The notes under the pieces: generated by a model
What the model saw: the letters and a program-made list of their open reading frames with translations, nothing else
Database searches by the model: none
What the model was told of the DNA's origin: nothing
DNA from: Haloplanus rubicundus
Lineage (GTDB): Archaea > Halobacteriota > Halobacteria > Halobacteriales > Haloferacaceae
Assembly (NCBI RefSeq): GCF_003342675.1
Contig: NZ_CP031149.1
Span: forward strand, 62,001-126,000
Reading direction: 5' to 3'
Length of the DNA stretch: 64,000 nt
Translations under genes and position numbers: made by a program
In this document: positions 5,430-49,081 of the stretch, piece after piece
Layout of the letters: each line of letters starts with the position of its first letter
Position numbering within the stretch: the first letter of the stretch is position 1

Positions 5430-6515
5430 ATGAGCACCCTCCGAGAAGACGCGCAGTCACTCTATGAGCAATTGGCTCCCCATCTGCCAGATGACTGCGC
5501 TGATGAGTATGACATCGACGCGCTCGCGACGCTCTTCGACTCCTACGTCAACACGTATCGAGTGCCGAGGACCCAGGCGTTCGAGAGTGTTCGAGGCCAC
5601 GTTCTCAAAGAGGTGGGCATCGACACTGACGCGTTCTGGGCGGCTCAACGCGATAGTGAACGGGGAACGACCGACGATCCTCTCCCTCTTGCTGAGTGTA
5701 CCACCGATAACGAGTGGGTCACAATTCGCGCGAGGGTCATCGAACTCTGGGAACCGAAGCACGAGTCTATCCACCAGGTCGGACTCATCGGCGATGAGAG
5801 CGGACGGCTCAAGTTCACCGCGTGGGCAAAGTCGGACCCACCAGACATCGAGGAGGACACGACCTACACGTTCAAAGATGTCGTGGTTGAGGAGTACGAA
5901 GGTTCCTACTCGGTGAAAATCAACTCGCGTAGCGAGATTATCGAGCACGCGCATGATAGCGCGGAAGCCGTGACAGATGTCGGGACGATGACCACGACAC
6001 ACGAAGGATTCTTCGTCGCTATCCAGGGGCAGTCTGGACTCATCAAGCGGTGCTCGGCTTCCGATTGCACTCGCGTCGTCACGGGCGGTGAGTGCAGCGA
6101 ACACGGCGCCGTCGACGGCGAGTTCGACCTGCGTATCAAAGCGGTCATCGACGATGGGCACACGGCCCAGGAATGCCTGTTCACTCGTGGCGTCACCGAG
6201 GAGGTCACGGGGATCGACCTAGAGGAGGCCAAGGAGCTGGCAGCCGACGCGCTGGATTTCACCGTCGTCTCCGACCGGTTCACCAACCTTCTGATCGGGC
6301 GGCGGTTCACCGTCGAAGGACCCTTGCTTGGGCGGTATATCCTCGTCGAGGAAGTCGAAGAGATTCCGGAAAGAGCGTTCTCGGATGGCTACGAAGAAGC
6401 AGTCGTGGAACTGCTCGCAGAACACAACCACGATGGGCCGGGGCTCACGGCTGCGTCCATCGAGGATCTCCCGCGCTCGTATGATGCACACGGGAGTGGC
6501 ATTGGAGGCGACTGA
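5430..6515 (+). CDS. Replication protein A (single-stranded DNA-binding, OB fold plus zinc finger)
   Basis: 361 residues from ATG 5430. This start is preferred over an upstream in-frame TTG at 5379, because the TATA box at 5391 would lie inside that longer reading. An N-terminal helical region is followed by an OB fold (about residues 95-175, starting WVTIRARVIELWEP) and a C-terminal zinc-binding motif with Cys208, Cys213, Cys222 and His225. This is the layout of haloarchaeal RPA1-type proteins. They coat single-stranded DNA in replication, repair and recombination. The RPA-associated protein gene follows after four bases. Extra RPA genes are common on haloarchaeal plasmids; whether this copy serves the element or the host is not visible here. 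Confidence 0.88.
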   Translation: MSTLREDAQSLYEQLAPHLPDDCADEYDIDALATLFDSYVNTYRVPRTQAFESVRGHVLKEVGIDTDAFWAAQRDSERGTTDDPLPLAECTTDNEWVTIRARVIELWEPKHESIHQVGLIGDESGRLKFTAWAKSDPPDIEEDTTYTFKDVVVEEYEGSYSVKINSRSEIIEHAHDSAEAVTDVGTMTTTHEGFFVAIQGQSGLIKRCSASDCTRVVTGGECSEHGAVDGEFDLRIKAVIDDGHTAQECLFTRGVTEEVTGIDLEEAKELAADALDFTVVSDRFTNLLIGRRFTVEGPLLGRYILVEEVEEIPERAFSDGYEEAVVELLAEHNHDGPGLTAASIEDLPRSYDAHGSGIGGD

Positions 6516-7671: not shown

Positions 7672-9264
7672 TTAGTTGTGCCTGATCGCGCCGGGGATCG
7701 GCGCCGAGTACGGCCCCGGTTCTTCCATCACGAGGTCGTCGTGGGGCGCTGCACGGACGGCGAGTGTCGGACTGGAGACAGAGTTAATCGTATGCATGAA
7801 TCCGGGTTCACTGCTGTAGATGCTGAAAGCGTCGATGACGACCCTGACGAGTTCAGCGCGAACGGCATCGGTGTCGATGCCAGCGATGAGCTTCTCCTCG
7901 GGCCCGGGTTCGGAGCCGGTGGGGTCGACCTCGATTCGGATGTCTTCCACTGGCGGTTGCGACGGTTCGGCCCACGGCGTGAGTGTGTAATGGTCGACTG
8001 GGCCGACAAATTCGGGCACGGCGTATCCCAGTGCATCCTCGAAGAGCGTTCGCACGTACGGTCCGCTCAGGAAGAGAATGTGACAGCACACTATTTTAGA
8101 CACGTCAACAGCGATGCCCCACGACCTGCTTCGACCCCACAAGGGTCCGTCTGAAACCCGGATATCGAAGACCGTCGCAAGGTAGGAGAGAATCCTCAGG
8201 GCACGCTCTCGAGTCGATTTCGGAGCCTCCTGCCACGAAGCGGGATCGAGTGTCAGCGTGATCGGAAGGATTCGATCGCGTTGGGCATGGTGTCTGAGTG
8301 GCCCGGCCACGAGCGCGTCCAGCCCGCTGTTGAGCGGATCTTGCCCGGTCCCGATGGCGGTGAGTGCCTCTCGACGTGCGTCGTGCCGTGCGTCGCTAGC
8401 AGCCGAGTCAGCCCGAGCGTGCGTCGCGAGGAGTGTGAAGTACTGTTGGGCGGCGGCGATCGCCTCCTGGTTGTCTCCAGCCGTAACGGCGATGGGGACG
8501 TCACAGGCATCAGCGAGCGCGGCGGCGTCGGAGCCGTCGTGTTCGTCTGCGATCTCTCGGGCGAGGTCGGCTGTACGAGGAAGCAGCTGTGTCCAGAGGT
8601 CGGGGAGCCAGTCACGCACCTGTGGGCCAACACGGGTGAGCTGAACGGCGTCGACGCGAGCTTGGCCCGGACGAGCGAGAGTGACCGACGCCTCCTCGAG
8701 GTCGATGTCGAAGATATCCTGGTCGACCTCCTCCGTGATGGCGTCGGCATAGCGCTGGTCGTCCCTCCCGAGGACGGCCTCGGCTTCTGCTTCGAGCCAA
8801 CGGTCCCGACGCGTGAGATAGGCTTCAGCGGCGGTTTCGAAGCGCTGAGATTTCTCCTCGAGGTACGCGTCAGCGAGTGCCTCGAACTGCTGGCCGTGCT
8901 CATCCAGCTGCGCCTCGGCGTCGGCGGCGAACAGCGCCTCCTGCTGGTCGAAATAGTCGGAGACCTGCTCCTCGAGGACGCCGTAGTCGTCGACGGCCGC
9001 GTAGCGATCGGCTTCATCGGCCTGATCAGCGAGGATTCGTGCCCGGAGTTCACAGGCGACGTCGAGATCATCGGCCTGAGCGTGTGGCTGAAGCCGGTCG
9101 GCCTGCCAGACTGCGCCGCAACTAGTACACTGCACCTGATCGTGGGTATTGAGATTCTCGACGAGCCAGCGACTCTGACAGCGCCGACAGCCGACGACCG
9201 AGTATCGCGGGTCGGAGTGGGGGCGAGCATCGCTCTCGGGGGAACCAGTAGGGTTGTCGTCCAT
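7672..9264 (-). CDS. Zinc-ribbon and coiled-coil protein (DUF5817-like N-terminus), unknown function
   Basis: 530 residues on the reverse strand. The N-terminus has a four-cysteine zinc ribbon (VVGCRRCQSRW, then VQCTSCGAVWQ) like that of DUF5817 proteins of haloarchaea. A long acidic, Ala/Glu-rich helical region (about residues 75-200) probably forms a coiled coil. The C-terminal half is globular with no recognised motif. The reverse-strand reading is chosen over a long forward open frame because its composition is acidic and haloarchaeal. It converges with the RPA operon, ending 49 bases from the HNH gene. Its role is unknown; large proteins of this build recur on haloarchaeal plasmids and proviruses. 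Confidence 0.7.
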   Translation of the reverse strand: MDDNPTGSPESDARPHSDPRYSVVGCRRCQSRWLVENLNTHDQVQCTSCGAVWQADRLQPHAQADDLDVACELRARILADQADEADRYAAVDDYGVLEEQVSDYFDQQEALFAADAEAQLDEHGQQFEALADAYLEEKSQRFETAAEAYLTRRDRWLEAEAEAVLGRDDQRYADAITEEVDQDIFDIDLEEASVTLARPGQARVDAVQLTRVGPQVRDWLPDLWTQLLPRTADLAREIADEHDGSDAAALADACDVPIAVTAGDNQEAIAAAQQYFTLLATHARADSAASDARHDARREALTAIGTGQDPLNSGLDALVAGPLRHHAQRDRILPITLTLDPASWQEAPKSTRERALRILSYLATVFDIRVSDGPLWGRSRSWGIAVDVSKIVCCHILFLSGPYVRTLFEDALGYAVPEFVGPVDHYTLTPWAEPSQPPVEDIRIEVDPTGSEPGPEEKLIAGIDTDAVRAELVRVVIDAFSIYSSEPGFMHTINSVSSPTLAVRAAPHDDLVMEEPGPYSAPIPGAIRHN

Positions 9265-43213: not shown

Positions 43214-43671
43214 TGAGGAACTCTATTCGAGTTAGCGTGCCGCTGAGTGGCTACGCTGCTGGAAGTCTCGAAAGATTACCCATATGATTGAGTGTTTGAC
43301 AGGAATAGCTGCTTGGAAAGCAATCTGGATCAGTTTCCGCTGACCGAATCTGTCAAATTCACGCATCACAGCCCCGCTAAACCCGCTGTAGTCTCAACTT
43401 CCACCACGTTCCTTTCGATATATCACTATACAGTTTATTAACTACATCTGAATCCCTAAAGCACGGTATTTCTGCTTTAGAGCCTCTGTATCGCGCGTTT
43501 ACTGAGTTGCATTTTCGAGAGTCGAGTGAGTACTCTTACTTCGATAAGAGTACGTACTTTCAAGCAGGTGGCCGCCGTCTACCAAAGCGAATCCCATGAC
43601 TCCACCTGACATCCCAAGTATTCCCGCTCAGATAGCCCTCGAAGCACGGTTCCACGGAGGCGGTGAGTGAG
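43214..43671. other. Intergenic region with a 9-bp hairpin before the integrase
   Basis: No gene is seen. The main structure is an inverted repeat with perfect arms GTACTCTTA (43530-43538) and TAAGAGTAC (43545-43553), 110 bases before the integrase start. It could be an operator or a recombinase arm-type site. Confidence 0.45.
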
Positions 43672-44913
43672 ATGAGTTCTTCTGGCAACGGCGAGGGCCA
43701 CACGGACGGCCAGGATGATCGGCCGGTCGAGATCGCGGACGTCGTCAAGGATTACCTCACGGACAAGGGCAAAGGAGCGGAAGGAAAGAGCGGGACGTAC
43801 CGCCGGGATGCAAAACGCGAACTCGGCCGCTTTTTCACTTTCCTCGAAGATGAGCGCCCGCGTTCGCCTACGACATTCGAGGAGCTGACTATCCGGGATA
43901 TCCGCCAATACGCTCGCCATCTCGCGACACAGGATTGGACTGAAAGCACGAAGCAGAACTATTACGCCCACATTTCGGCGTTCTGCGGATGGGCGGTACG
44001 CGAGGGATATCTGGACGAGAATCCTGCGTTGAAATCACGGGCAAAAGAGCCACTTCCAGAAGACGACGGACGGAAGACCGAACGCCAACAGGCGTGGTCA
44101 CCCGAGCAGCGAACAGCACTCTTAGAGTACGTCGACGAACAGGCACACGAAGCCATCGACGAAGTGGGCGAGAACCGCTACGAGGCGATCAAAGCGTGTC
44201 GCGACCGAGCGCTCGTCTATCTCCTGTGCTTCTCGGGTGTTCGCGGCGCGGAAGTCCTGGCCGATGTCGCCGACGCCCGACGAGGTCGTGATGGGCTTCG
44301 CTGGTCGGACGTTTCCCTCGAGGACAACACAATCACCGTCCTCGGGAAGAAGGGTGAATGGAGCGATAGGGCTGTCCCACCGTCTGCGATCCCGTCACTC
44401 GAACGCCTCCGGTCAGTACTGAACCCATCGAGTGACGACTGGCCCGTGTTCACGACGCTGTCGTATCCAACCCTCGTCGAGACGTTCAAAGACGAACTCG
44501 TTGAGCAGGACTATACGCGCAAAGAGGCTGAGAGTCTGCATCGCGAGCAGGTGAACGATGGGGACGTCTCGATGATCGAACTCTGCGTCGAGTACGATGT
44601 CGACCCTCCGGCGTTGACGACCCACAGCGCACGGCGGATTTTGCAGCGACTCACAGAGGAAGCAGACATCGACTTGGATGACGACAAACACGGCTATCTT
44701 GCCCCGCACGGCGCTCGTCGGGGAGCTGGCGAAGTGATGGTTCGGGAGTTCGGGTACACGGAGGCGGCACGGCACCTGGATAACTCCGAGGAGGTTGTTC
44801 GCGAGCACTACTCACATATCGAGGCGAGTGAACGCGCTCAGATGGCTGAGACGGCGTTTCAGAATCAGCGACCTAGCCAGAAAGATGTGCCCGACCAGGA
44901 CTCCGACGGGTAG
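43672..44913 (+). CDS. Tyrosine recombinase / integrase (XerC-like)
   Basis: 413 residues from ATG 43672 (GTG 43663 is possible). An N-terminal SAM-like DNA-binding domain (TYRRDAKRELGRFFTFL, then IRQYARHLATQ) precedes the catalytic domain. Catalytic residues appear intact: Arg191 (FSGVRGAEV), Lys near 226 (VLGKKGEWS), His346-x2-Arg349 (PHGARR), His368 (ARHLDNS) and nucleophile Tyr380 (REHYSHI). It can excise, integrate or resolve dimers of the element. Its position before the ParA operon suits multimer resolution of a plasmid. A short attachment site could not be recognised. Confidence 0.88.
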   Translation: MSSSGNGEGHTDGQDDRPVEIADVVKDYLTDKGKGAEGKSGTYRRDAKRELGRFFTFLEDERPRSPTTFEELTIRDIRQYARHLATQDWTESTKQNYYAHISAFCGWAVREGYLDENPALKSRAKEPLPEDDGRKTERQQAWSPEQRTALLEYVDEQAHEAIDEVGENRYEAIKACRDRALVYLLCFSGVRGAEVLADVADARRGRDGLRWSDVSLEDNTITVLGKKGEWSDRAVPPSAIPSLERLRSVLNPSSDDWPVFTTLSYPTLVETFKDELVEQDYTRKEAESLHREQVNDGDVSMIELCVEYDVDPPALTTHSARRILQRLTEEADIDLDDDKHGYLAPHGARRGAGEVMVREFGYTEAARHLDNSEEVVREHYSHIEASERAQMAETAFQNQRPSQKDVPDQDSDG

Positions 44914-45275: not shown

Positions 45276-45297
45276 TGAAATCAATTTGAGGGTAGTT

Positions 45298-46182
45298 ATG
45301 ACCGACACCTACCCAGAAGTACTCGCCATCTCGTTTCAGAAGGGTGGCACTGGCAAAACATTCACCTCGTTGAATATTGCGGGTGGTCTTGCAGCTCGCG
45401 GCTTCAACGTGCTTGCCATCGACCTTGACCCACAGGGCACTCTCACCGCAAACCTTGGGAAGCGAGACCTCTACAAAGACCTAGACGCGCTCTCACTGGA
45501 TGAAATCCTTTTAGATCCGAAAAGTTGGGATAATGTGAACGAACTCGTTCTCACCGATCACGAAGAGTTCGATCTTATCCCCAGCAACCAGACTTTCAAC
45601 GGGAACAAGACGCCTCTGGACTCGGCTGATGCCGGCGAGAACCGACTGGGGCGGCTCTTACAACGGCTTGAAGACGATTATCATTACATCGTGTGTGATT
45701 GCCCACCGGATTTCTCACCATACGCGAAAAACGCAGTCACGGCCGGTGAGAAGATTGTCGTGCCGATGGAGCCAGAGACGGAGATGCCACATTCGACGGA
45801 CCTGTTGTTCGATCAATACGAGGTTCTTGGAATGATGCACGATCTCGAGATTCAGTATCTCGCCTTCCTGATGACGGTGAACTCGACGAAGATGACCAAC
45901 GAGAACAAGCGAATTGTCGAGTGGTTCAACGAAACTTTCGACGAGAAAGGCGTCACTACTGATCATCGGGCGGCGTTCGCGAGGGCGAAAAAGAGCCAGC
46001 AGTCAATCTACGCTCACCCAGAATCGCTCCGGAACGACGAAATCGAACGATACGACGAACTCCTTCAATTGATTCTTAAGCAGACATCACCCCCCACGCT
46101 CGGATTGGATGTTGAAGCGGCAAAGGCGATGACCGTCGAAGATATTCGCGCTGCGGCGGCCGACCGGGAGGTGGAAGCATGA
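45298..46182 (+). CDS. parA: ParA partition ATPase
   Basis: 294 residues from ATG 45298. The deviant Walker A box is KGGTGKT (15-21), with the signature Lys15. Walker A' lies at VLAIDLDPQGTLT and motif B at HYIVCDCPPDFSP. These define ParA/Soj ATPases, which move plasmids by binding the nucleoid and interacting with a DNA-bound partner. The gene has 23 bases after the last repeat of the array. Its stop overlaps the start of the next gene (ATGA), the likely partner. No separate N-terminal helix-turn-helix is present. Confidence 0.9.
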   Translation: MTDTYPEVLAISFQKGGTGKTFTSLNIAGGLAARGFNVLAIDLDPQGTLTANLGKRDLYKDLDALSLDEILLDPKSWDNVNELVLTDHEEFDLIPSNQTFNGNKTPLDSADAGENRLGRLLQRLEDDYHYIVCDCPPDFSPYAKNAVTAGEKIVVPMEPETEMPHSTDLLFDQYEVLGMMHDLEIQYLAFLMTVNSTKMTNENKRIVEWFNETFDEKGVTTDHRAAFARAKKSQQSIYAHPESLRNDEIERYDELLQLILKQTSPPTLGLDVEAAKAMTVEDIRAAAADREVEA

Positions 46183-46661
46183 GTGACGATTCCTCTGAAG
46201 ACGACTTTGAGGCACAGATGAGCGATGTTTCAGAGCGGGCACAGAAACTCGGAGTCTCCGGTTCGGACCCAAGCTCGAGTTCGGGCGCTGAATCGTTGTC
46301 CGAAAATACCACGGGTGACACTGAGGAGAGAGCCGAAGTGGATTCTGATGATCCATCGGCTGCTCAGCAGGCAGTTGAACAAGAGTCACGCACGACTGGA
46401 GGACCTGATACCCACGAATACCCGAACCCAGATAGGGAGCTGGGAGCACTCACTGATGTATACAGGAATAATAACGTATTCCTCTCACCCGAGGTCGTCG
46501 ACGCCGTTGAGGGTCTCTGGGATGACATCGAGTACGAATGGAAGAAGTCTCACGATACGGAACTCAACAAGAACTGGGACTTCTACATGGCCTGCTTCCG
46601 AGTCATCTTAGACAATCCCGATCTCGTCCGTGACGAACTTGATATGGATACTGAGTCGTAG
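46179..46661 (+). CDS. Probable ParB-like partition partner
   Basis: 160 residues, translationally coupled to parA by a four-base overlap. The first 90 residues are acidic and disordered (Ser/Glu/Asp-rich). The C-terminal 70 residues form a compact domain (NNVFLSPEVVDAVEGLWDDI, then FYMACFRVILDNPDLV) that may bind DNA as a dimer. No classical ParB nuclease-like domain is present. The call as partition partner is from position alone; the array upstream of parA would be its target. Confidence 0.6.
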   Translation: MSDDSSEDDFEAQMSDVSERAQKLGVSGSDPSSSSGAESLSENTTGDTEERAEVDSDDPSAAQQAVEQESRTTGGPDTHEYPNPDRELGALTDVYRNNNVFLSPEVVDAVEGLWDDIEYEWKKSHDTELNKNWDFYMACFRVILDNPDLVRDELDMDTES

Positions 46662-46792
46662 TTTCGGTATCTCCGAGGACAGATTTTCAACTCTTAGCTT
46701 AGTTTAGATAGTGAAGGACGTCTAATGTAAAGACATCAATTTAGCATGTTGATCTCCTTTCGACCCTCCTGTGGGCTGTCGATTTAGACAAA

Positions 46793-46817
46793 GGATATAT
46801 ATCACGTCGATATATCC
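46793..46817. promoter_or_regulatory. TATA-type 8-bp inverted repeat before the structured element
   Basis: GGATATAT (46793-46800) and ATATATCC (46810-46817) form a perfect inverted repeat with a nine-base spacer. Either arm could serve as a TATA box. In the forward direction it would start a transcript near 46822-46845, just before the large structured element. Confidence 0.5.
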
Positions 46818-46845
46818 CCACGGGACAGGCTACGACACCCGGACA

Positions 46846-46978
46846 GGACGTCTACGCGGATAAGTAACGAAACGAGCCCGCTTCGTGGGCTAGTAGCGTT
46901 ACTCGGGCACTTCTTGGAGGGTGTTTCCCCTGTGATCTGTACTTTTGGAGTAGTACAGGTCACTACGCGTAGACGTCC
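46846..46978 (+). ncRNA. Candidate 133-base structured RNA, closed by a perfect 13-bp stem
   Basis: GGACGTCTACGCG (46846-46858) pairs perfectly with CGCGTAGACGTCC (46966-46978), enclosing further stems: GTAACG/CGTTAC (46864-46869/46897-46902) topped by AGCCC/GGGCT (46875-46879/46887-46891), and an 11-bp stem at 46932-46942/46953-46963 containing one pair that is U-G only in forward-strand RNA. No open frame fits. A multi-branched RNA is the best reading; a replication origin or cruciform-binding site is the alternative. Confidence 0.5.
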
Positions 46979-47133
46979 ACGGAATGCGCCGTAGTCCAAG
47001 CAGACCAGTTGAGCCCTCCCCTTGCCTGACTCACGTTGTTGCTGACTGTCGACTGATCCACACCATCGGTAGCGCTGCCCGTGTCCACCCTTCTCCTGGC
47101 TGGAGAGGCCAATGTATTTTCCTCGAGACTGCC

Positions 47134-47616
47134 TCATTCTGAACCGCCAATCTCTAAGAGAACCTCGACGAGGAACTCGAGGTCGTGAATTTCCTGATCG
47201 AGCTGAGCGCGTTCGAGTTCACGAGTGAGGAGCGCATCGAGAAGGCGCTGCTTGAGCAGGATCGCCTCTGCCGACCGAATCGCATCTATCTCTTCGTCGA
47301 CTAGTGTTGGTTGAGTGGCGTCGGGAAGTTTTCCGTCTGGTCGGGGCACGAGTCCTGCTCGAATGTCGGTACGAACGCGTCTGTAGTGTTTACACCCCCC
47401 TTCCGGCGGGTCATCAGGGCACGTACAGGTTCGTTGGAGTGCGTCGACCTCGTAGACGCTCCCGGACGCCGATCTGACCTCATATACGCCGCCCTGTTGG
47501 AGCAGCGCGACATCCATCTCCTGGGTCTGCGCCCGGCCCTCACGTCGGATTGCGGCGTTCTCAAGCGACTGTGCCAATACTTCTGCTAGGTTGGAATCGG
47601 ATGCTGCTGTTGCCAT
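47134..47616 (-). CDS. SWIM zinc-finger protein
   Basis: 160 residues from ATG 47616 (ATG 47634 adds six). A SWIM motif CxCx(n)CxH is evident: RTCTCPDDPPEGGCKHYRRV. It is followed by a long helical, coiled-coil-like C-terminus (AEAILLKQRLLDALLTRELE). SWIM domains bind DNA or proteins and are common in small regulators of haloarchaeal plasmids. It is transcribed from a promoter near 47740 with the shared TTTGTCG leader, placing it in the leader-motif gene set. Confidence 0.75.
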   Translation of the reverse strand: MATAASDSNLAEVLAQSLENAAIRREGRAQTQEMDVALLQQGGVYEVRSASGSVYEVDALQRTCTCPDDPPEGGCKHYRRVRTDIRAGLVPRPDGKLPDATQPTLVDEEIDAIRSAEAILLKQRLLDALLTRELERAQLDQEIHDLEFLVEVLLEIGGSE

Positions 47617-47696
47617 CGGGATATCGGTCTCCACGGGGTGACGGCGCTTCGAGATGCTGTACGCGGCCCACGGTTGCCTCTAGCGCTGCCCCTCTA

Positions 47697-47860: not shown

Positions 47861-49081
47861 ATGCCATACCTCGCGATGCGGCCGAACGGTGACCGGGTGA
47901 TCTCGTTAGATGTTGATGGCTCCGATGAAATTCTCTGTCCACTGTGTGAAGGACCGCTGTTCCTCCGACGATCACACTACAACAGTGGGCGATTCGTCTC
48001 GAAGCACTTTGTGCACCATTCAGGGTCCGAGTGTTCTGGCGAATCAAACCTCCACGCCAAACTCAAAACCATCGCGGCGATGAAACTCCGCGAGGTCTTC
48101 GAGTCAGCAACTGTTGATCACGAGCAGTCTATCCCGGGGACTAACCGAATTGCGGATGTGGTCGCGACGTTTTCTGAAGAGATACATCCGTTCGGGAAGG
48201 GCGTCATCGTCGAGATTCAGCACAAGCACGACGGCAAGAAGATTGGTTCAGTTTTGCGGGACTACCTGAAGGCGGGGTACTCGGTGTTCTGGGCGTACCA
48301 GTCGGATTTCAAAGGGCACGACATGAACTTCGTCGAACATCGTGTAACGCAACCCTGGCCCCACGCCGTGCCAATCGTTGAGGGGCTCGATGGCTACTCC
48401 GAGAGTGTACAGCGATTGATGGACCCGCCGGAACGGCCCAAAGTGATGATGGAGATCCCGTTCCCAAGGGAGTATCTGCGAGCCCACGCGCTCGAAGCGA
48501 TTCCGCCGCTTCGAGGATACTACGATGAGGGTGTTTCACCCGAGGGATGGAGGAAGATCGACGCAATCTCGCTTCATGGAAATGGGCGTGGGCGGGCGTG
48601 GATCAACGTTCTCTACTCGCCGTCAAATCACATCTTTCTCGAATGGTGGAAGAAGGATACTGAGCAGGGCAATTCGGAGTACATGATCGTCCACATTGGG
48701 AGTGAGTTTCCCGAGAGATTTGAGACGTTCATGGAAGACACAAAAGGGTGGTTCGACTCGGGGAATGCTGATCAGCAGGTTTCACACTGGGTGGGCGGGG
48801 CATCGCTGAATTTCCGAGGAACGAAGTTGTGTGGGAGTTGGGTCTCCATCGCCAAAGTGCCGTATGGTCCGGTGAAAATTGTGGTCGCCCGACGCGACAA
48901 GAAGGGAAACACGCGGACGTGGGCAGTGAACTACCGGAAGGGAGATCTTGGACGGCTGGCAGCGCTGCGCCACCCGATTCGACGGCTCTTCGGCGAGTCG
49001 GAGATGGAGACAGAAGCGACGAAGCCGTCGTCGGACAGCAAGCGGGGGACGAGCAACCTACCCGAGATATGGTGGGACTAG
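47861..49081 (+). CDS. CoiA-like nuclease-domain protein
   Basis: 406 residues from ATG 47861. The N-terminal zinc part (LCPLCEGPLFLR, KHFVHHSGSECSGESNLHA) resembles CoiA-family proteins. It is followed by a PD-(D/E)xK-type core: NRIADVVATFSEE with an Asp, then VIVEIQHKHDGKK with Glu-x-Gln. CoiA proteins take part in DNA uptake and recombination in bacteria; archaeal relatives are uncharacterised and sit on plasmids. The C-terminal half (Trp-rich, with RGYYDEGVSPEGWRK) has no known match. It is the only long forward gene in this part, convergent with the NrdJ-like gene. Confidence 0.65.
   Translation: MPYLAMRPNGDRVISLDVDGSDEILCPLCEGPLFLRRSHYNSGRFVSKHFVHHSGSECSGESNLHAKLKTIAAMKLREVFESATVDHEQSIPGTNRIADVVATFSEEIHPFGKGVIVEIQHKHDGKKIGSVLRDYLKAGYSVFWAYQSDFKGHDMNFVEHRVTQPWPHAVPIVEGLDGYSESVQRLMDPPERPKVMMEIPFPREYLRAHALEAIPPLRGYYDEGVSPEGWRKIDAISLHGNGRGRAWINVLYSPSNHIFLEWWKKDTEQGNSEYMIVHIGSEFPERFETFMEDTKGWFDSGNADQQVSHWVGGASLNFRGTKLCGSWVSIAKVPYGPVKIVVARRDKKGNTRTWAVNYRKGDLGRLAALRHPIRRLFGESEMETEATKPSSDSKRGTSNLPEIWWD

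Follow-up and report, generated by a model that had tools for sequence, protein, structure and literature searches.

The window, by which we mean the whole 64,000-nucleotide stretch of DNA analysed here, carries beside a parA gene a structured element that very probably represents a new family of structured RNAs found on haloarchaeal plasmids. Our preferred reading, held with moderate confidence, is that of a plasmid-encoded antisense RNA acting in trans by pairing with the translation starts of plasmid genes. Its more ambitious form, in which this undescribed archaeal plasmid RNA family would, as a master regulator acting by antisense pairing in trans, govern a regulon for conjugation and replication (the starts of a pilin gene, of a replication-factor-A-like gene, hereafter RPA, and of others), has in our estimate an even chance of being right and, if true, would mean RNA control of plasmid transfer in Archaea. 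Many archaeal sRNAs are known, few of them with known targets, and the control of megaplasmid transfer and replication in haloarchaea is largely open. Here the RNA is compact, its seed is explicit, and its conserved sites can be named, so that single and compensating mutations could test for a trans regulon.

First, the element is a real, strongly folded structure. The initial annotation had described 133 bases closed by a perfect 13-bp stem with further stems inside; both the closing stem and the inner stems are present, and the element itself stands, but its extent had been drawn too tightly. Comparison with relatives reveals two conserved additions outside the 13-bp arms, a CTACG...CGTAG helix and a CGG/CCG block, so that the structure reaches outward to 165 nt in the subtype found here (subtype A). 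Its architecture is that of a four-way junction: a long helix closes the element and carries three hairpins. The parts are as follows:

46830..46994, plus strand: the whole structured RNA, subtype A, a four-way junction (homologues by covariance model, double-sided covariation, fold)
46846..46858, plus strand: 5′ arm of the 13-bp closing helix (fold)
46863..46903, plus strand: hairpin P2, the fastest evolving, with double-sided changes in its base and tip
46905..46929, plus strand: hairpin P3, more conserved than any other part of the RNA (alignment, independent folds)
46916..46923, plus strand: proposed seed GGAGGGUG in P3, invariant in subtypes A–D
46932..46963, plus strand: hairpin P4 (alignment, fold)
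46966..46978, plus strand: 3′ arm of the 13-bp closing helix (fold)

When the plus strand of the 133-nt core was folded against dinucleotide shuffles, as had been recommended, it reached −71.2 kcal/mol compared with −42.0 ± 3.5 (z −8.5), and none of 200 shuffles was as stable. The minus strand folds just as well (z −8.9), and folding energy therefore cannot tell which strand is used. The consensus fold does prefer the plus strand, with a conservation index of 0.90 versus 0.66. A strand call from G-U versus A-C departures at Watson–Crick-majority pairs was discarded, the counts being even (28 vs. 27).

Second, the structure is conserved across plasmids and its stems covary. About 18 haloarchaeal genomes or plasmids have homologues next to parA, and these sequences form four subtypes, A–D. 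BLAST matched the element on plasmids of Halorientalis, Halobellus, Haloplanus, and Halorarius, and a subtype C query added plasmids of Salinirubellus, Salinigranum, and Haloplanus GDY1; Haloglomus irregulare and Halonotius pteroides came from a DNA pattern search. The covariance model gave 7 strong matches in 392 genomes of the order, one more (G037) in a second genome draw, and no other match in 295 genomes drawn from the phylum. Subtype D, comprising G377, G329, and Haloarcula pelagica, scores merely 12–13 bits with this model in G377 and G329; its sequence is almost unrelated, yet it shares the gene context, the four-way fold (z −4.0), and the P3 core. In a 12-sequence alignment that had been fitted to the covariance model, 22 of 65 pairs show changes in both partners, compared with 12.0 ± 2.2 after shuffling (0 of 500 shuffles reached the observed count), and 92.7% of the paired cells can pair, a proportion that drops to 35–50% when the structure is slid along the alignment. 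Independent folds of the sequences return near-identical architecture in all except one or two. Within P3, subtypes A and B are identical except for one U, and the 5′ end of the seed is predicted to be unpaired in A, C, and D and mostly paired in B. Part of the seed is base-paired in the predicted folds, in subtype B more than in the others. The homologues and compensating stem changes called for by the earlier claim thus exist, and its statement that no gene explains the element holds as well: a small ORF within the element was considered and ruled out, none being common across the subtypes. No further copies were found elsewhere in the genome at the DNA level, and no viral carriers were found. 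Covariance models of Rfam 15 gave no match at the gathering score for subtypes A, C, and D, and a literature search returned no description of this RNA.

Third, the element comes with a promoter-like sequence of its own, placed so as to predict a transcription start at about 46822, directly ahead of the closing helix:

46788..46803, plus strand: BRE/TATA-like promoter acaaaGGATATATATC, with a GATATA-type box upstream in all subtypes
46793..46817, no strand assigned: palindrome GGATATAT-N9-ATATATCC over the TATA and −10 region, 0 expected by chance

The GATATA box lies 30–43 nt ahead of the first stem in all subtypes (TTATAT in Halorarius) and is preceded in most of them by CAAAG or CGAAA (CGAAA or CCAAA in C and B), where the haloarchaeal consensus has CGAAA as BRE and WW as −10 element (PMC4983044). 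The palindrome corresponds to the TATA-type inverted repeat that had been noticed ahead of the element; relatives have weaker forms, and we propose that it serves as a −10 element or an operator. In its near-perfect form it occurs nowhere else in the window, and it could be the operator for some regulator. The direct repeat of the outer-arm core, AGGACGTCTA, likewise exists at 46715–46724; 0.16 matches to this 10-mer are expected in shuffles, none was seen upstream of the relatives' elements, and it is probably due to chance.

What do the neighboring genes say about the function of the element? The flanking genes in the window are:

43663..44913, plus strand: tyrosine integrase gene, conserved beside parA (PF13102, PHROG integrase; synteny)
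45286..46182, plus strand: ParA ATPase gene, the upstream neighbor (Pfam AAA_31, 6e-31)
46179..46661, plus strand: parX, a small ParA partner gene (ParA–parX pairs occur on other plasmids too)
47134..47634, minus strand: SWIM-type gene, convergent with the element, in subtypes A and B only
47861..49081, plus strand: CoiA-like gene, the downstream neighbor (weak PF25164)

Subtypes A, B, and D keep the order integrase, parA, parX, RNA, whereas C has parA in the reverse orientation; the one parA homologue found in Haloglomus is distant and about 5 kb off. Membership in a general ParA–parX system was ruled out, as other plasmids with the pair lack the RNA. On the 3′ side follow the convergent SWIM gene (A, B) and/or the CoiA-like gene, and then a conserved block ending in DUF6610. 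Since the CoiA-like gene of C and D has the same orientation as the element and begins about 150 nt beyond it, the element might be read as the cis-acting leader or riboswitch of that gene, which we consider very improbable: the SWIM gene intervenes in A and part of B, no CoiA-like gene follows in Halorientalis, Halobellus, Halonotius, and G005, and in subtype D the gene is split or fragmented. The RNA is intact where the CoiA-like gene is missing or broken and is thus independent of it; a constant 5′-UTR position is not found, and the gene order rules one out. As observations in their own right, the plasmids of Halobellus DFY28 and H. pelagica each carry two copies of the parA–parX–RNA module (in H. 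pelagica with the integrase included), Haloplanus HW8-1 has a TnpB-family gene between parX and an intact RNA (L007 4602–5906), and a parX homologue lies without the RNA (L075 3240–3770) on pR1SE of Halorubrum lacusprofundi R1S1, known as the plasmid-vesicle plasmid.

The adjacent integrase, parA, and parX, together with inverted repeats that fold equally on both strands, could also point to a DNA element, namely a single-strand or cruciform replication origin, a centromere, or a recombination site. We regard this as improbable, considering the conserved promoter, the consensus fold that favors one strand, and the ParA–parX pairs that occur on other plasmids without the element. A replication origin in particular, raised in the initial annotation as an alternative to a regulatory RNA, did not survive closer inspection. 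An orc1/cdc6 gene is located on the same contig at about 28.2–29.5 kb, flanked on both sides by inverted ORB-like repeat arrays of the type CCATTCACACCGAGGGG (G000:C3 ~27.7–29.9 kb; L084 1734–3842), and this locus is probably the replication origin of the plasmid. The element, at 108.8 kb, is about 80 kb away and lacks iterons, and there are plasmids with a close Orc1 homologue on which no element was found. The adjacent orc1 and repeated ORBs that would mark an Orc1/Cdc6 origin are both located at about 28–30 kb.

Finally, the most conserved hairpin has complementary sites at gene starts on the same plasmids. P3 was chosen as the candidate interaction site for its conservation and scanned against whole plasmids; the target motif was found only after P3 had been inspected. 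The complement of the seed GGAGGGUG, CACCCUCC, is found repeatedly in sense orientation where genes of these plasmids begin to be translated. These are the RPA gene (window 5430), a pilin gene of related plasmids that is VirB2/TrbC-like (Pfam TrbC/VirB2 30.1 bits vs. a cut-off of 27.9), and a gene whose product begins MPEIQVDW; a small gene has the complement in its leader. In the window the proposed target is:

5430..6515, plus strand: replication-factor-A-like gene (MSTLREDAQ...), proposed target ("replication factor A" annotation in relatives)
5433..5442, plus strand: proposed target site AGCACCCTCC, codons 2–5 of that gene (duplex scan)

The motif A[AG]CACCCTCC has 27 sites in five plasmids, 16 of them at a start codon, a count that rests on mechanically called ORFs and on plasmids of shared ancestry, so that the 16 are not independent and represent about six gene families. 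By comparison, 292 shuffled motifs averaged 3.0 sites and 0.15 at starts, with a maximum of 2. The segment CUUCUUGGAGGGUGUU can pair with the RPA start over 16 nt (14 Watson–Crick and 2 G-U pairs); this start is the best non-self duplex plasmid-wide in G005 and Salinigranum and ties for best across the whole 147-kb window contig, whereas in GDY1 it falls outside the top eight. In the RPA and pilin genes the site overlaps codons 2–5 (ATG-A(A/G)C-ACC-CTC-C); in the MPEIQVDW gene, and in two others in subtype C, it lies just before the AUG, as A(A/G)CACCCTCC-N-ATG; in the small gene divergent from the pilin gene it is located 34–40 nt upstream, in the leader. In the RPA, pilin, and MPEIQVDW families the position of the site is kept while the proteins diverge, and the small-gene leader site is kept in every one of six plasmids examined, among them that of subtype D, where protein identity is 53%. 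The site-bearing MPEIQVDW start occurs in 7 of 392 genomes, exactly the seven with strong RNA matches and on the same contigs, a coincidence that mainly reflects shared plasmid ancestry, as the search pattern contained site and gene together. The correspondence is not complete: pilin genes in A and D and homologues of the MLVL gene in A and B lack the site, and the plasmid of Haloplanus rallus has the RPA site but the RNA was not found on it. On the window contig the sites are 41–55 kb from the element. Long matches between other parts of the RNA and the contig gave nothing consistent. The sequence ATGAACACCCTCC occurs once on another contig (G000:C1:137094–137106, minus strand), either a target outside the plasmid or a chance match.

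These same sites admit another interpretation, in which the structured RNA belongs to the plasmid maintenance module and acts via a bound protein, the CACCCTCC sites are DNA operators of a transcription factor, and the P3 complement is itself an operator or an accident. UUGGAG occurs in P3 and a second time in the P4 loop region of A, B, and D, offering possible protein sites, and the gene-start sites often lie shortly 3′ of a TATA-like box, a position from which an operator could work. Moreover, when P3 was swapped between subtypes, cognate pairs were not systematically the best; the 8-nt core varies neither in the RNA nor in the sites. We nevertheless consider this interpretation unlikely, as the sites show a consistent orientation with respect to the gene (16 in the sense orientation, only 3 near starts in the opposite one), can fall within codons 2–5, which is odd for an operator, and match a strand of the RNA's most conserved hairpin.

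Returning to the trans-acting antisense RNA, the marks of such an sRNA are found here: a BRE/TATA upstream in all subtypes, no common ORF, a conserved structure, and a conserved seed complementary to the translation starts of unlinked genes. With covariation, promoter, lack of a conserved ORF, and gene-start complementarity all in its favor, the earlier suggestion of a plasmid regulatory RNA is well supported. The computed observations are the structure and its conservation, the match to a promoter, the excess of target sites, and the presence of RNA and site-bearing gene together on the same contigs. From them we infer transcription and physical pairing, the direction of regulation, and a biological role, as follows. 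A non-coding RNA gene of about 165–177 nt (shorter in D) would be transcribed rightward from its own archaeal promoter, and its four-way junction would hold up the nearly invariant hairpin P3, whose strand GGAGGGUG(UU) would pair with A(A/G)CACCCUCC at the starts of several genes of the same plasmid. As haloarchaeal mRNAs are mostly leaderless or short-leadered, pairing at the starts should block initiation by the ribosome. Judging from the identities of the targets, the transfer and replication functions of the plasmid may thereby be held back in trans.

How does this compare with known regulatory RNAs? FinP of F and RNA I of ColE1 are plasmid antisense RNAs that restrain transfer or replication via loop pairing, and the element resembles them as a plasmid-encoded, structured RNA with a proposed restraint of this kind. 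They are, however, antisense to a single target, whereas the element would have several, tens of kb away; a cis-antisense copy-number RNA of the RNA I or FinP type was rejected, as the element overlaps neither an annotated nor a conserved gene. RNAIII of Staphylococcus is a bacterial multi-target sRNA with a loop seed and is similar by general description, with one invariant hairpin loop directed at the translation starts of several mRNAs; by the same description, the element differs in being archaeal, in belonging to a plasmid family, and in having no known helper protein. Haloarchaeal trans sRNAs (for example Haloferax sRNA132, PMC6560208; s479, PMC8155600) are likewise intergenic, have their own promoters, and are proposed to act on mRNAs encoded elsewhere. 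Compared by features, the element differs from them in being plasmid-borne, mobile, larger, and highly structured around a four-way junction, with its seed in a hairpin and its targets on the same plasmid.

The RNA is carried by a family of 120–560 kb haloarchaeal plasmids, and the 147-kb contig containing the window (C3) is probably a plasmid as well. The target list hints that plasmids classed as non-mobilizable by typing tools possess a VirB2-like transfer apparatus; the presence there of the TrbC/VirB2-like pilin gene (L122 3876–4220, minus strand) suggests that this apparatus has gone unrecognised. Elsewhere in the window, the minus strand at 8128–8157 holds an isolated CRISPR repeat (Rfam CRISPR-DR24, 48 bits); the window was not reported to contain another. 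On a plasmid, such a lone repeat might be a relic or serve as a CRISPR decoy.
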